Part shown: one piece after another, positions 9,888-51,641 of the stretch
Layout: every line of letters starts with the position of its first letter
Position numbering within the stretch: the stretch's first letter is position 1
Assembly: GCF_900169145.1 (NCBI RefSeq)
Contig: NZ_FXZD01000003.1
Location: 248,001-312,000, forward strand
From: Brevibacterium antiquum CNRZ 918
GTDB taxonomy: Bacteria; Actinomycetota; Actinomycetes; Actinomycetales; Brevibacteriaceae
DNA length: 64,000 nucleotides
Direction: 5' to 3'
Program-made: the position numbers and the translations under genes
The notes under the pieces: generated by a model
What the model was told of the DNA's origin: nothing
Databases searched by the model: none
What the model saw: only the letters and a program-made list of their open reading frames with translations

Positions 9888-10649
9888 ATGAGAAGCGAGC
9901 TCGAACCACAGGAGAAGAAACGCCTGTGGTTCGAGCTCGGTCTCGTTGCCGCACTCTCGCTGGGCCAATCCGCTGTATATGCGATTGTGCGCTTGGCCGA
10001 CATCACCTCCCGCGGTCCGATCAGCGAAGCCCAGGCGAAGCTCAACACCTCGATGTCGCCGCGGCCCGGGTTCGACCTCGTCTACCAGATCCTCGATATC
10101 GGTTTCACGCTCGTGCCCGTGCTCCTGGCCCTCTACCTGCTCACTCGCGACACCGATGCCCCGCCCCTGAGCACACGGCTGGGCGTGAACGGTCAGAGCG
10201 GGAAAGACTTCGGTCGTGGAACGCTGATCTTCACCATCATCGGCATCGGCACTCTGGCCGTCTACGCGGGCGGCAGGGCCCTGGGGATCACGGCCGAGAT
10301 CCAGCCTGCCAACCTCGGCGATCATTGGTGGGCCATTCCCGTGCTCATCCTGGCGGCAGCGAAGAACGGCATCGTCGAAGAGATCATCATCTTCGGCTTC
10401 GGGGCCGAACGGCTCCAGCGTCTGGGCTACGGGATGTGGCCGATCATCATCAGCCTGGCGGTCTTTCGTGCCAGCTACCACCTGTACCAGGGCATTGGGC
10501 CGTTCATCGGAAACGTCGCCATGGGCATCATCTTCGGATGGTACTTCATGCGCAGGGGCAGACTGATGCCGTTGGTGTGGGCGCACTTCATCATCGATGC
10601 CGTGGGCTTCCTGGCACCGGGAATCCTCGCCCTCGTCGACGTAGGCTGA
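9888..10649 (+). CDS. CPBP family intramembrane protease-like protein
   Basis: A 253-residue, 6-8 helix membrane protein of the CPBP/Abi (Rce1-like) family. Motif 1 appears as EEIIIFGF, with the glutamate pair but Phe where EExxxR has Arg. Motif 2 is FRASYHLYQG and motif 3 is HFIID. The family includes CAAX-type proteases and proteins of unproven activity. A -10-like TACAGT (9875-9880) ends 7 bases before the ATG and no Shine-Dalgarno is visible, so the mRNA may be leaderless. It sits 25 bases after the RND gene. Confidence 0.8.
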   Translation: MRSELEPQEKKRLWFELGLVAALSLGQSAVYAIVRLADITSRGPISEAQAKLNTSMSPRPGFDLVYQILDIGFTLVPVLLALYLLTRDTDAPPLSTRLGVNGQSGKDFGRGTLIFTIIGIGTLAVYAGGRALGITAEIQPANLGDHWWAIPVLILAAAKNGIVEEIIIFGFGAERLQRLGYGMWPIIISLAVFRASYHLYQGIGPFIGNVAMGIIFGWYFMRRGRLMPLVWAHFIIDAVGFLAPGILALVDVG

Positions 10650-13303: not shown

Positions 13304-13367
13304 CCGACGGTTGGTATGTTCTGCTCGAAGAAGTTCAAAACTTCGAGCAGCACATACCAACCGTCGG
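13304..13367. repeat. 27-bp-stem intergenic inverted repeat
   Basis: The arms 13304-13330 and 13341-13367 are complementary at 26 of 27 positions (one mismatch, 13320 with 13351) around a 10-base loop. It starts 34 bases past the PhoX stop, between convergent genes. It may act as a terminator, but it is far longer than needed and has no U-tract, so an RNA element or a dispersed palindromic repeat is also possible. Confidence 0.8.
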
Positions 13368-13385: not shown

Positions 13386-13424
13386 GTTGAGGGCAGCACA
13401 CCGAAACGGTGTGCTGCCCTCAAC
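13386..13424. terminator. bidirectional hairpin terminator
   Basis: A perfect 18-bp stem (13386-13403 with 13407-13424) closes a 3-base AAA loop, between the convergent PhoX and VOC genes. Its symmetry and position suggest it ends transcription from both sides. Confidence 0.8.
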
Positions 13425-47429: not shown

Positions 47430-48275
47430 TCAGCCGGCGATGATCGGATTCCACGTCCCCAGCGCATGTGCGGCCACGATCGCGAGCGCACAGACTCCGA
47501 GCGACACCGCCACGGCCACCCCATCCCCGGCACCGAAGACCGACTGCCTGCGCCAGGTCCGCCCGGGCCTGCCGAACGCGCGGCCCTCCATCGCCATCGC
47601 CAAGGTCGTGCCTCGTCGAATCGACTGCACCAGCAGCACGAAGATGCCGGCGAAGAGGCTTCTCGTCCGTCGCGCGATCGAACCCCCGGCAACACCTCTG
47701 GCCCGCCTGGCCATCGACAGTGTCTGCCACTCGATAACAAGCAGGCCCAGGAGCCGACTGGCGGCTAGAACCGAGACGACAACGACCTCGGGCAGGCGCA
47801 GATGTTGGATCAGCGCATCAGAGAGGTCCCTGGGATCGATCGTCGATGCGAGCACGATCAGCGGAATCGCCAGCGCCAGAGTCCGGACGAAGATCGCTGC
47901 CGCGGCATCAAGGGATCCCGCTGTCATCAGAATCGGGCCGAGATCGACGAGCACAGCACCGGACTTCTCCGCCAAGATCGCTGTGCCCCAGGCTGCCAAC
48001 AATGCTCCCAGCGGCAGAAACCACAGCCGTTTGAGTGCGGCGATCATGTCGAGCCCAGTGGCTGGCAGGCCGATCAGGGTGAACCCGAGGACCACACCGG
48101 CCGAGACGAGGTCGATACTCAGCAGGGCACCGACCATGAGGATGAGCGCCACAGCGATCTTCGTCAGCGGATTGCACCTGACCAAGGGAGTGGAGCGCAC
48201 CACAGGAATGAGCTGACCGGGATCCTGAACCTCCACCTTCGCGGGAGCATTCGTCAGATCACTCAACTCGCTCAC
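47430..48275 (-). CDS. ykoC: ECF transporter transmembrane component (EcfT/YkoC type)
   Basis: A 281-residue membrane protein with five to six helices, the T component that couples ATP hydrolysis to the S component. The coupling-helix signatures ASRLLGLLVIEWQTLSMARRARG and IRRGTTLAMAMEGRAFG (Ala-Arg-Gly type) are present. It overlaps the ATPase gene by 17 bases. Its operon under a TPP riboswitch identifies it as the YkoC-type subunit of a thiamine or hydroxymethylpyrimidine importer. Confidence 0.9.
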   Translation of the reverse strand: MSELSDLTNAPAKVEVQDPGQLIPVVRSTPLVRCNPLTKIAVALILMVGALLSIDLVSAGVVLGFTLIGLPATGLDMIAALKRLWFLPLGALLAAWGTAILAEKSGAVLVDLGPILMTAGSLDAAAAIFVRTLALAIPLIVLASTIDPRDLSDALIQHLRLPEVVVVSVLAASRLLGLLVIEWQTLSMARRARGVAGGSIARRTRSLFAGIFVLLVQSIRRGTTLAMAMEGRAFGRPGRTWRRQSVFGAGDGVAVAVSLGVCALAIVAAHALGTWNPIIAG

Positions 48276-49821
48276 TCCTCGACAGCCGATCGGAGGCGGC
48301 CTCGGAAAGAGTTGCGGGCGAGGCGTTGGCAGCTGGTTGCCCCAGTTCTATCCGCCTGGCGCCGATCGCATCGAGGAATGAATGATCGTGGCTGACAGCC
48401 ACGACGGAACTGCCGCGGGCAAGCACATCGAGGAACAGCTCGACCAACCCCGCCCACGTCAGAGCGTCCTGCCCGAACGTCGGTTCGTCAACGATGAGGA
48501 CCCTGGGCCGCGGGGCCATCATCGCAGCGACCGAGAGCCTGCGCTTCTCACCCCCGGACAGACCCTGCGGATGTGCCTCGGCTATCGTCTCCAGACCCAG
48601 TACATGCAGCAGCTCTTCGACACGCTCGTCGACATCGGAACTCGACCATCCGGCCAGTCGCGGCCCCAGCGCCAGTTCCTCGGCGACACTCGAGGTCAGG
48701 AACTGATGTTCCGGCTCCTGGAACACCATCCCGATCCGCGGGGCCAGAAACGCCGAGGGCCAGCGGAATGGCCGAGCCTGCTTCGCCCCCGATCGCAGGG
48801 ACCCGAAGGCATTGACCTCACCGTCGAATTCGGAGATCAGACCGGCAAGCGTCAGCGCCGTCGTCGACTTTCCCGCCCCATTGTCCCCGATGATGCCCAG
48901 GGCCTCACCGGCGCGGACATCGAAGTCGATGTCCGTTGCCGCCGCAACCTTCGCCCGCGGACGAGCGACGCCGAGGCGATGCGTCCTCAGAAGCACCTCT
49001 CCGGTGGAGCCAGGAGCCGGATTCGGCGTGGCTCGTGTGGCCCGATTCCCAGCCATCGGTTCGCGATTCGCGACAGCCTCCGGGTCTTCGGGGACCCAGA
49101 TGCCGCACTCGCGGAGTTCCCCGGCGATCTGCGGATCACCGAAGACCTGCCTCGGCGGGCCCTGGGTGATGAGTCCCTGGCGGCCGAGCACAACGACGGT
49201 GTCCACGTGATCGAGCCACAGGCCGACTCGATGTTCGACGATGACCATCGTCGCCGAGGTTGCCGCCTGGGTCTCGAGGATGGCATCGCGAACGGCCCCG
49301 GCAGAGTCGGGATCGATGTTTGCCGTCGGTTCGTCGAGGACGATGATCTCAGGTCTCATCGCGTGGATGCCGGCGAGGGCCAGACGCTGCTTCTGGCCGC
49401 CAGACAGTGCCGCAGTGGGATGTGATTGGGGGAGGGCGAGGCCCATCCTCGCCAGCGATGAGGCGATCCGGGCCTCGATCTCCTCGGCGGGCAGACCCAG
49501 GTTCTCCATGCCGAAGGCGACATCGTCGCCGACGCGGGAGAAGATCACCTGCGAATCGGGATCCTGCAGGACCAGCCCGGTCTCACCTCGGCGAGGGTCG
49601 GGTGGACAGTCGCCGATGAGGAGCTCACCGGTCGCCGTACCGGACTCGGAAGGCACGACACCGGCGATGGCGTGGAGCAGGGTGGACTTGCCTGCCCCGG
49701 ACGGGCCGAGCAGGAGGACCTTCTCACCTGCGGCGATGTGCAGGTTGATGGGACCGACGGCAGGTTCGTCACGATCGGCGTGTTGCCATGAGAACCCGCG
49801 GGCGGTGATCGGCAGAGCCAT
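48259..49821 (-). CDS. ykoD: fused double ATPase of the ECF thiamine-precursor transporter (YkoD type)
   Basis: A 520-residue protein holding both ECF nucleotide-binding domains. Domain 1 (about 1-230): Walker A GPSGAGKS, signature LSGGQKQR, Walker B IIVLDEPTANID. Domain 2 (about 280-510): GDNGAGKS, LSGGEKRRLS, VLIVDEPTFGQD. The fusion of two ATPases is the YkoD pattern. ATG 49821 overlaps the ykoE stop; the open frame runs on upstream but without similarity. It drives import of thiamine or HMP with YkoE and YkoC. Confidence 0.93.
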   Translation of the reverse strand: MALPITARGFSWQHADRDEPAVGPINLHIAAGEKVLLLGPSGAGKSTLLHAIAGVVPSESGTATGELLIGDCPPDPRRGETGLVLQDPDSQVIFSRVGDDVAFGMENLGLPAEEIEARIASSLARMGLALPQSHPTAALSGGQKQRLALAGIHAMRPEIIVLDEPTANIDPDSAGAVRDAILETQAATSATMVIVEHRVGLWLDHVDTVVVLGRQGLITQGPPRQVFGDPQIAGELRECGIWVPEDPEAVANREPMAGNRATRATPNPAPGSTGEVLLRTHRLGVARPRAKVAAATDIDFDVRAGEALGIIGDNGAGKSTTALTLAGLISEFDGEVNAFGSLRSGAKQARPFRWPSAFLAPRIGMVFQEPEHQFLTSSVAEELALGPRLAGWSSSDVDERVEELLHVLGLETIAEAHPQGLSGGEKRRLSVAAMMAPRPRVLIVDEPTFGQDALTWAGLVELFLDVLARGSSVVAVSHDHSFLDAIGARRIELGQPAANASPATLSEAASDRLSRSERVE

Positions 49822-50450
49822 CAGCGCATGCGGCCGGAGGCGAAGGAGCTCAGCGCACCGGTCTTCGCGATCGCACGGTAGGCGAACCAGGCTCCGATGC
49901 CGGAGATGACGATGCCGGAGATGATGGCGCACACCGCATAGGCGGCTTGGAAGCCCAGCTGCCATTCGGCGTTGTACATGATGTTCTCGCTCACAGACAT
50001 GAATGCTGCGGCCAGCAGTCCGGACAGGCTCGTGACCCACAGACTGAATTTTCGATAGCCGAAGGCGGCGAAGATGAGTTCGGCGCCGAGACCCTGGATG
50101 AACCCGGAGAGCAGAACTGTGGCGCCGAAGTGGGAGCCGAGGACGGCCTCGACGATGGCGGCGATCATCTCGCATAGCAGTGCGGCACCGGGTTTGCGGA
50201 TGATGATCGCAGCCAACGGTCCCGCGAGGACCCACAGGCCGGCAATGAGGCCGATCGATGGGGGGAAGGCTTGGAACCCGAGTTCGAGGACCTTCCAGCT
50301 CAGGGCCAGGACCCAGAAGATGAGTCCGACGGAGATTCCGAGCACGGCGGTGACGACGTAGTCGACGACCTTCCACTGCTTCGTCACGGGGACGTGGGAA
50401 TACTTCGGCTTGAATCCGGTGGTGGTATCCGGCGCGGTCGTTTTTGGCAT
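49821..50450 (-). CDS. ykoE: ECF transporter S component, YkoE family (thiamine/HMP)
   Basis: A 209-residue, six-helix substrate-binding subunit. PSIGLIAGLWVLAGPLAAII, RKPGAALLCEMIAAIVEAVLG and LSGFIQGLGAELIFAAFGYR are characteristic of YkoE. A TPP riboswitch directly upstream on the same strand strongly supports thiamine or its pyrimidine precursor as substrate. ATG 50450 is preceded by GAGGAGG, which is sequestered in a hairpin (50455-50473). First gene of ykoEDC; the regulatory gene ykoF seen in Bacillus is absent. Confidence 0.92.
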   Translation of the reverse strand: MPKTTAPDTTTGFKPKYSHVPVTKQWKVVDYVVTAVLGISVGLIFWVLALSWKVLELGFQAFPPSIGLIAGLWVLAGPLAAIIIRKPGAALLCEMIAAIVEAVLGSHFGATVLLSGFIQGLGAELIFAAFGYRKFSLWVTSLSGLLAAAFMSVSENIMYNAEWQLGFQAAYAVCAIISGIVISGIGAWFAYRAIAKTGALSSFASGRMR

Positions 50451-50454
50451 TGTG

Positions 50455-50473
50455 CCTCCTCAGATCAAGGAGG
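50455..50473 (-). promoter_or_regulatory. Shine-Dalgarno-sequestering hairpin (riboswitch expression platform)
   Basis: Plus-strand CCTCCT (50455-50460) pairs with AGGAGG (50468-50473) around a 7-base loop. In the minus-strand mRNA this hides the ykoE ribosome site, and it lies 13 bases 3' of the aptamer. Translational switching is the likely mechanism. Confidence 0.75.
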
Positions 50474-50486
50474 GGTAGAAGAGTCT

Positions 50487-50576
50487 CGACTTCCTTCGGC
50501 GGTGCTAACCACATCAGGTTCGAGGGTCTGCAGCTTCATCTGCACTCTCAGCGCCTTAGTCGGCGCTCCCCTGTCG
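50487..50576 (-). ncRNA. TPP riboswitch (THI element)
   Basis: Read on the minus strand, the aptamer has GGGGAGC at its 5' side, the invariant CUGAGAG (plus 50545-50551), then ACCCTCGAACCTGATGTGG (within plus 50507-50527), TTAGCACC and a closing GAAGGAA. The terminal P1 helix pairs CGAC (50573-50576) with GTCG (50487-50490). It binds thiamine pyrophosphate and represses ykoEDC. Confidence 0.96.
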
Positions 50577-50609
50577 TGGCACCCACTGTACAGCAGTCCA
50601 CGACAGGGG
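50568..50609 (-). terminator. uspA terminator sharing one arm with the TPP aptamer
   Basis: A perfect 12-bp inverted repeat (50568-50579 with 50598-50609) with an 18-base loop, 8 bases past the uspA stop. On the minus strand its 3' arm contains the CGACAGGGG that forms the 5' side of the riboswitch. TACAGT in the loop (minus strand) could be a -10 for an internal ykoE promoter. Confidence 0.75.
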
Positions 50610-50616
50610 CGTCGGC

Positions 50617-51525
50617 TCAGCTCGGGACGACCATGATCGGTCCGTCCGCACGGTGGAGGACTCCACGTGAGACGGACCCGAGAAGAGCACTGCTGACGGG
50701 ACCACGTCCGCGGGAGCCGAGGACGGTCAGCTGCGCAGTCTTCGTGGCTTCGACGAGAATCTCGGTCGGATCTCCGATCGGCACCTCGGCGCGCACCTGC
50801 ATATCCGGAAACTGCTGAGTCACGGCAGCGACCTCTGCCTCGAGGGCTGCTTCGAGCTGTTTCTGCCTCCGACCGGAGGCCTCGGCGCTCAGCTCCAGCT
50901 CGGGGTACCAGTAGAGCCATTCGTTGCCAGCCGGGAGGACGGAGACGATATCGAGTGCGGCTCTTCGTGAGCTGGCCACCTCGGCGGCGGTGAACATGGT
51001 CAACCGTCCGGCATCCGAGCCGTCGACGGCCACGACAACAGGGGCCTCGGCCGTTTCCGAGGGGCGGGGCGCGACCACAACCGTCGGGCAGTGGGAGTGT
51101 GCGGGCAGTGCTGTGGACACCGAGCCGAGAATTCGGCCGATGAAACCGCCACGGCCCCTCGCTCCCACGACCACTGTCCGTGCGTGGGCGCTCAGATCCT
51201 TCAGAACTCCGGCCGCGTCGCCCCGCTCGGCGCGGTAGACGACCTTGCCGCTGTGGTCTCGCAGGAGTCCGGCCGCCTCACCGAGGAGTGACTCGACCGC
51301 TCGGAGTGAGGCTTTCTCCTCGTTCTCCTTCGGCATTGATGCGAGGTTCGGATAGAGCATCGCAGGAACGGTATAGGCGGCGACGACAGTGAGGACGGCG
51401 TTGCGGCGAGTGGCCTCGGCTGCTCCGTATTCGAGGGCGCGCGCGGCGAGTTCGGAGCCGTCGTAGCCGACGAGGATCCCGAGGTCCGTCGATGTCTGGT
51501 CAGCGGTGGGGTTCTCGGCAGTCAT
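50617..51525 (-). CDS. universal stress protein with two USP domains
   Basis: A 302-residue tandem UspA protein. Domain 1 (about 10-155) has ILVGYDGSELAARALEYG and the ATP-binding VVVGARGRGGFIGRILGSVS. Domain 2 (about 160-300) has VVVAVDGSDAGRL and LTVLGSRGRGPVSSALLGSVS. Both keep the G-x2-G-x9-GS-type nucleotide loop, so ATP binding is expected. ATG 51525 has GGGAGGT 6-7 bases upstream; an in-frame start 10 codons earlier is less likely. It precedes the riboswitch-controlled ykoEDC operon but is separated by a terminator. Confidence 0.93.
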   Translation of the reverse strand: MTAENPTADQTSTDLGILVGYDGSELAARALEYGAAEATRRNAVLTVVAAYTVPAMLYPNLASMPKENEEKASLRAVESLLGEAAGLLRDHSGKVVYRAERGDAAGVLKDLSAHARTVVVGARGRGGFIGRILGSVSTALPAHSHCPTVVVAPRPSETAEAPVVVAVDGSDAGRLTMFTAAEVASSRRAALDIVSVLPAGNEWLYWYPELELSAEASGRRQKQLEAALEAEVAAVTQQFPDMQVRAEVPIGDPTEILVEATKTAQLTVLGSRGRGPVSSALLGSVSRGVLHRADGPIMVVPS

Positions 51526-51641
51526 GGCAGACCTCCCAATGGGGGCCGAAGGCACCCGGACGACGACGGTGGCCCCATCATCAGAACCGTCCCCGTGCGA
51601 CTCAGTCTACCAAAGCAATTCTACGGAGCGTAGAAGAACCT

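Follow-up and report, generated by a model that had tools for sequence, protein, structure and literature searches.

We consider it probable that the ykoE leader of Brevibacterium antiquum CNRZ 918 is a TPP riboswitch that has its own promoter abutting P1, and that this strain carries in addition a hairpin at the junction with the upstream uspA gene, which possibly stops uspA transcription and would disable the aptamer in read-through RNA. A local accident or a simple stop signal is a likelier account of the hairpin than a common control device. The DNA that was analyzed, here called the window, is 64,000 nt long, and its minus strand carries in succession a DUF4916 gene, uspA (50617-51555, with two Usp stretches, Pfam PF00582), a TPP aptamer, ykoE, an ABC ATPase gene and a gene for a CbiQ-type permease. 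The aptamer (RF00059, 50474-50582, minus strand) scored 61.1 bits in cmscan against a gathering threshold of 54.3. In the Rfam alignment the 5' strand of P1 corresponds to 50577-50573 and that of P2 to 50572-50569, and the outermost P1 pair, A50577-A50486, is non-standard.

Downstream of the aptamer, and likewise on the minus strand, are ykoE, encoding the membrane subunit of an ECF-type transporter (49821-50450, Pfam PF09819, E 1.3e-38), a ykoD-type duplicated ABC ATPase gene (48259-49821, PF00005 in two stretches) and a ykoC-type gene for a transmembrane (CbiQ) subunit (47430-48275, PF02361). The products of these YkoEDC genes we take to be a thiamine-linked transporter, and the PF09819, ABC ATPase and CbiQ genes supply the thiamine-related gene that RF00059 requires downstream. 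Relatives of the YkoE protein at 78-89% identity belonged to Brevibacterium at 25 of 26 loci. The idea that a constant gene precedes ykoE was rejected, since the fetched flanks contained uspA, a DUF4916 gene or another stretch, depending on the genome. Between the aptamer and ykoE, the hairpin CCCCTCCTTGATCTGAGGAGG (50455-50475, minus strand) can hide the ykoE Shine-Dalgarno sequence and is likely a translational expression platform. The corresponding CTCCT...AGGAG pattern was found in 46 of 54 ykoE leaders, and among the remaining eight, inspected by eye, two have CCTCC...GGAGG and six another hairpin. With a full aptamer above gathering, ykoEDC-type genes behind it and a hairpin 3' of it that hides the ribosome site, the element agrees with known TPP riboswitches (THI element, RF00059) and is probably an ordinary one that exerts translational control over ykoEDC; it differs from them in that, in the window strain, a sequence upstream of the promoter is perfectly complementary to the 5' strand of P1 and P2 as well. 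As a separate observation, a GTGCC...GGCAC-type hairpin replaces CTCCT...AGGAG in ykoE leaders L082-L087, possibly as an alternative way to hide the ribosome site.

The first-pass annotation had suggested that a transcript could start at TACAGT (50590-50585, minus strand), in the loop of the uspA-proximal hairpin described below, and comparison with other leaders supports this well. The genus set was based on a YkoE match in 56 of 57 genomes, and 57 loci gave 54 leaders, one per genome, with L070, L071 and L078 dropped for lack of a recognizable aptamer 5' strand. Positions were counted from an anchor, CGAC, which lies one base inside P1 according to the Rfam alignment; six distant leaders have a different anchor. 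A TANNNT box starts at -16, -15, -14 or -12 in all 54 ykoE leaders and occurs nowhere else in their -90 to -1 region, so that the hexamer in the window belongs to a near-fixed -10-like element. When starts from -25 to -8 were counted, the box was found in 54/54 ykoE leaders, 31/36 of the other Brevibacterium TPP leaders and 45/54 TPP leaders from the same order or class, compared with none of 144 leaders at the control stretch -55 to -38, a total in which one Brevibacterium ykoE leader (L149) belongs to two sets. The order/class set was obtained after dropping four of 58 loci at contig edges; it retains L142 and L171, whose register is unsure, and includes L149, hence the leaders in it that are truly other number 53. 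The five genus leaders without a box beside P1 (L091-L094 and L096) include three that carry one further upstream, and several of the nine order/class leaders without one also have a box further upstream.

Of all 90 Brevibacterium TPP leaders examined, 85 have a TANNNT whose first base is 11-16 nt ahead of the P1 anchor; their transcripts therefore probably begin at the edge of the aptamer, which provides a usable rule for this genus even under the ordinary reading of the element. The same arrangement has been reported for Corynebacterium glutamicum, where, according to PMC3890552, the RNAseq-mapped starts of five TPP rows lie no more than 9 nt upstream of the Rfam start and no more than 5 nt inside it, and about 97% of 2,591 starts are preceded by TAnnnT; the difference is that the Brevibacterium start is a prediction. 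From the usual box spacing the ykoE start would fall near 50577, which is the first base of P1. With the -10 box just upstream of P1, the normal transcript would begin at the aptamer, so that normal mRNA would never hold the 5' arm of the repeat. A scan of 49800-51200 for a sigma-70 pair gave no -35 box, and our search of the open-access literature found no start sites for Brevibacterium; both results weigh against the reading that we prefer. A box is also found close to a repeat in L027 and similar TPP leaders of the genus, where the -10-like TAGAGT is flanked by CTCC and GGAG, the two halves of a short repeat directly preceding P1; a leader of this type occurs in the window's own genome.

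The perfect 12-bp repeat that the first-pass annotation had noticed after uspA was confirmed. On the minus strand its 5' arm, CCCCTGTCGTGG (50609-50598), begins 8 nt past the uspA stop and is separated by an 18-nt loop (coordinates rechecked) from the 3' arm, CCACGACAGGGG (50579-50568). Since the 5' strands of both P1 and P2 lie inside 50579-50568, it is also right that the repeat and the aptamer share an arm. Shuffled DNA seldom contains a perfect repeat of 12 bp or more whose loop measures 3-40 nt, with three in total across 12 dinucleotide shuffles compared with six in the window, whereas at 10 bp or more the contrast is weaker (11 in the window versus 1 to 11 per shuffle). When only the upstream region was compared with the aptamer 5' strand, a match of at least 12 bp occurred in a fraction of 0.00035 of 20,000 shuffles, which is optimistic because the site had been chosen by a reader.

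Folding predictions support the earlier claim that hairpin and aptamer are mutually exclusive in RNA that reads through from uspA. The isolated hairpin has a predicted energy of -27.5 kcal/mol, and the read-through RNA (50622-50430) folds at -78.5 kcal/mol with the hairpin versus -58.9 kcal/mol when the aptamer is forced, a difference of 19.6 kcal/mol. For a short RNA (50581-50430) the values are -51.1 kcal/mol for the free fold and -43.5 kcal/mol with the aptamer forced. Judging by the affinity range, ligand binding is expected to repay less than about 20 kcal/mol. Because the gap in the read-through RNA, which is of that size, is beyond what binding should repay, this RNA is predicted to be blind to TPP. 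When polymerase reads through from uspA, the hairpin would form before the aptamer is complete, and RNA that continues past the hairpin would be unable to form the aptamer and would lose its response to TPP. In the predicted free fold of the short RNA, the GGGG of the P2 strand pairs with CCCC before the Shine-Dalgarno hairpin, and this pairing could possibly act as the switching strand.

The repeat had originally been called a terminator, a label of which only a part stood up. There is a strong stem close to the uspA stop; behind neither arm, on either strand, is there a T-tract, and the terminator scan listed none at the uspA-ykoE site. A canonical intrinsic terminator was therefore rejected, and the label would need the disputed U-less type. 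For that type the sequence features are present, namely a strong stem less than 50 nt from the uspA stop and no U-tract, and these are what the hairpin has in common with the U-less 'I-shaped' terminators of mycobacteria, which, according to the review PMC12288462, are predominantly used by mycobacterial genes and lie within 50 bp of the stop; it differs from them in its 18-nt loop with a promoter box and in a 3' arm within an aptamer, and here it is a candidate terminator. Three of the window's five other long repeats are located 3' of Pfam-supported genes, and by eye none of the five has a T-run behind it. U-less hairpins of this sort at gene ends make it plausible that the uspA hairpin acts as a terminator, and in the reading that we prefer the hairpin may serve as a U-less terminator for uspA.

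A stronger version of this, which we regard as unlikely, holds that the hairpin is a true terminator whose 3' arm doubles as part of the aptamer, so that read-through from uspA stops and thiamine control stays clean. The short distance of 8 nt from the uspA stop and the stability of the stem would suit such an insulator, as would the mycobacterial precedent just mentioned, and the 40 nt that separate the P1 anchor from the uspA stop leave little room for a separate terminator. However, L058 (34 nt) and L062 (51 nt) have a similarly short spacing and no long arm, and by eye a short distance to the upstream gene did not go along with having an arm. The lack of a T-tract argues against it as well, and the same review calls Rho-dependent termination dominant in mycobacteria and cites, judging by the titles in its reference list, one study in which the U-tract is required and one in which it is dispensable.

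The insulator reading is further weakened by a second genome of the same species, G016, whose ykoE leader (L038) has no 5' arm. Both genomes contain TGTACAGTGGGTGCCACGACAGGGGAGCG, upstream of which their sequences are unrelated, and in G016 the segment from box to aptamer is identical while no upstream match to the aptamer strand exceeds 4 bp. In 60-column blocks, identity between the window and L038 is 95-98% at 52000-51581, 62-85% at 51580-50622, 20% at 50621-50609, 57% at 50608-50569 and 93-100% at 50568-49849. The two UspA proteins agree at 71-72% of residues, and closer ones occur elsewhere, with 88% in G044 and 86% in G005. A diverged uspA block between near-identical flanks implies that an exchange of the block took place in one genome or the other and that its boundary lies at the promoter, and on this alignment the 5' arm of the repeat is part of the exchanged block. 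The apparent allele exchange, at 50600-51580, spans about 1 kb. The ykoE tree places the window and L038 together as sisters (100/100) inside an 11-row clade, and matches to the aptamer strand in the other rows of this clade do not exceed 7 bp. Judged on these two genomes, the 12-bp repeat thus appears strain-specific, and the notion of an evolved, conserved insulator, for which conservation of the overlap in relatives had been named as a test, finds no support in this comparison, in which the overlap is not kept.

According to the preferred explanation, the repeat would be a strain-specific addition at the point where the diverged uspA allele and its 3' flank meet the native promoter-aptamer segment, possibly perfected by template switching during replication. 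The donor allele was not found, and one same-species comparison cannot tell which of the two genomes changed, which count against this explanation. It is conceivable, with a probability that we put below one half, though above that of the insulator, that the repeat is purely a by-product of mutation, an imperfect inverted repeat around the promoter that was perfected by template switching and has no effect. Such a switch can make a perfect stem in one event, according to PMC8794818, and a partial version, CGTGGAC/GTCCACG, is present in the relative G020 (L042), although at 7 bp it is itself within chance (p about 0.15). Against an effect-free by-product stands the conserved arm block of one clade described below.

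Arms recur in other lineages more often than accident alone would lead one to expect. A Watson-Crick match of at least 9 bp to the aptamer 5' strand occurs in 13 of 54 ykoE leaders from about three lineages: the window (12 bp), nine leaders of the oceani-permense-epidermidis clade or its kin (9-13 bp) and three of a distant group (10 bp). No such arm was found in 36 other genus and 54 order/class TPP leaders, i.e. in 89 others, where the longest matches are 7 and 8 bp, respectively; the search spans differ slightly between the three sets. Shuffling gave fractions of 0.0001 for L043, 0.0008 to 0.02 for five more leaders of the clade and 0.011 for L085. Between the three lineages the arms vary in their sequence register and in where they lie; they therefore do not represent one inherited element, and since nine of the 13 belong to one clade or its kin, the number of independent cases is about three.

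One reading of this recurrence is that the pairing is under selection as a trap for the aptamer, in which an upstream arm pairs with P1/P2 in read-through RNA of several lineages, and read-through and promoter-born transcripts are controlled differently. In addition to the different arms and positions and the low shuffle fractions, including that of the window, conservation within the large clade is in its favor: over 18 leaders of that clade group, positions -27 to -18 have a mean of 1.54 bits compared with 0.56 for -60 to -28, which suggests constraint on the arm block in this one clade. However, of the 17 rows of the clade in the ykoE tree (100/99), eight reach 9 bp and nine do not (the ninth arm-bearing leader of the clade or kin, L066, is outside the tree). 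L016/L052, L040 and L059 hold 15-16 bp when G-U pairs are allowed, and L009 and L020 are without an arm. Among 16 leaders, some changes in the arm keep the pairing as G-U (C to T at -21 in two and at -23 in one), and others break it, namely C to A at -22 and G to T at -26, each in three leaders, and C to G at -23 or -27, each in a single leader. As the aptamer strand is nearly invariant, it offers no covariation readout, and a null based on swapping leaders is uninformative.

Predicted folds gave a similar picture. After identical upstream sequences were merged, leaving 53 ykoE and 35 genus leaders, the mean predicted upstream pairing of the P1/P2 strand was 0.56 in ykoE leaders versus 0.43 in their shuffles, compared with 0.30 versus 0.31 in the other genus leaders and 0.18 versus 0.20 in the order/class leaders. 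Values of p<=0.05 were reached by 17/53 ykoE and 3/54 order/class leaders, but also by 5/35 other genus leaders, and these counts are not independent. On balance, we give selection for a trap a low probability. Only marginally better, in our estimate, are the prospects of the general proposal that in several Brevibacterium lineages an arm upstream of the promoter traps P1/P2 only in read-through RNA, thereby splitting two transcription inputs without a separate terminator, the same aptamer being functional in RNA born at the promoter and disabled in read-through RNA. If the trap reading were true, the position of the transcript start would govern riboswitch function, and annotation of the aptamer alone misses control of this kind; it is the independent recurrence of arms in ykoE leaders that is worth testing. 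The open-access literature that we searched contained no description of the overlap between repeat and aptamer or of Brevibacterium TPP leaders.

We also considered whether every lineage has some hairpin ahead of the ykoE promoter, and rejected this, since the upstream part alone gave a mean z of -0.18 in 53 leaders versus -0.41 in 35 controls; adding the P1/P2 5' strand changed the means to -0.82 and 0.10, respectively. A single leader, L053 (genome G042), has a very stable hairpin of -52 kcal/mol over 67 nt (z -8.7), which is located 5' of the -10 box and does not use the aptamer strand, and L048 has a weaker version of it. Elsewhere in the window, two perfect hairpins of 16 and 18 bp, at 13304-13367 and 13386-13424, are found between a phoX gene and the glyoxalase-type gene that converges on it and are candidate U-less terminators, and a 17-bp perfect hairpin at 9896-9939 follows an AcrB-type transporter gene, starting 34 nt beyond its stop.
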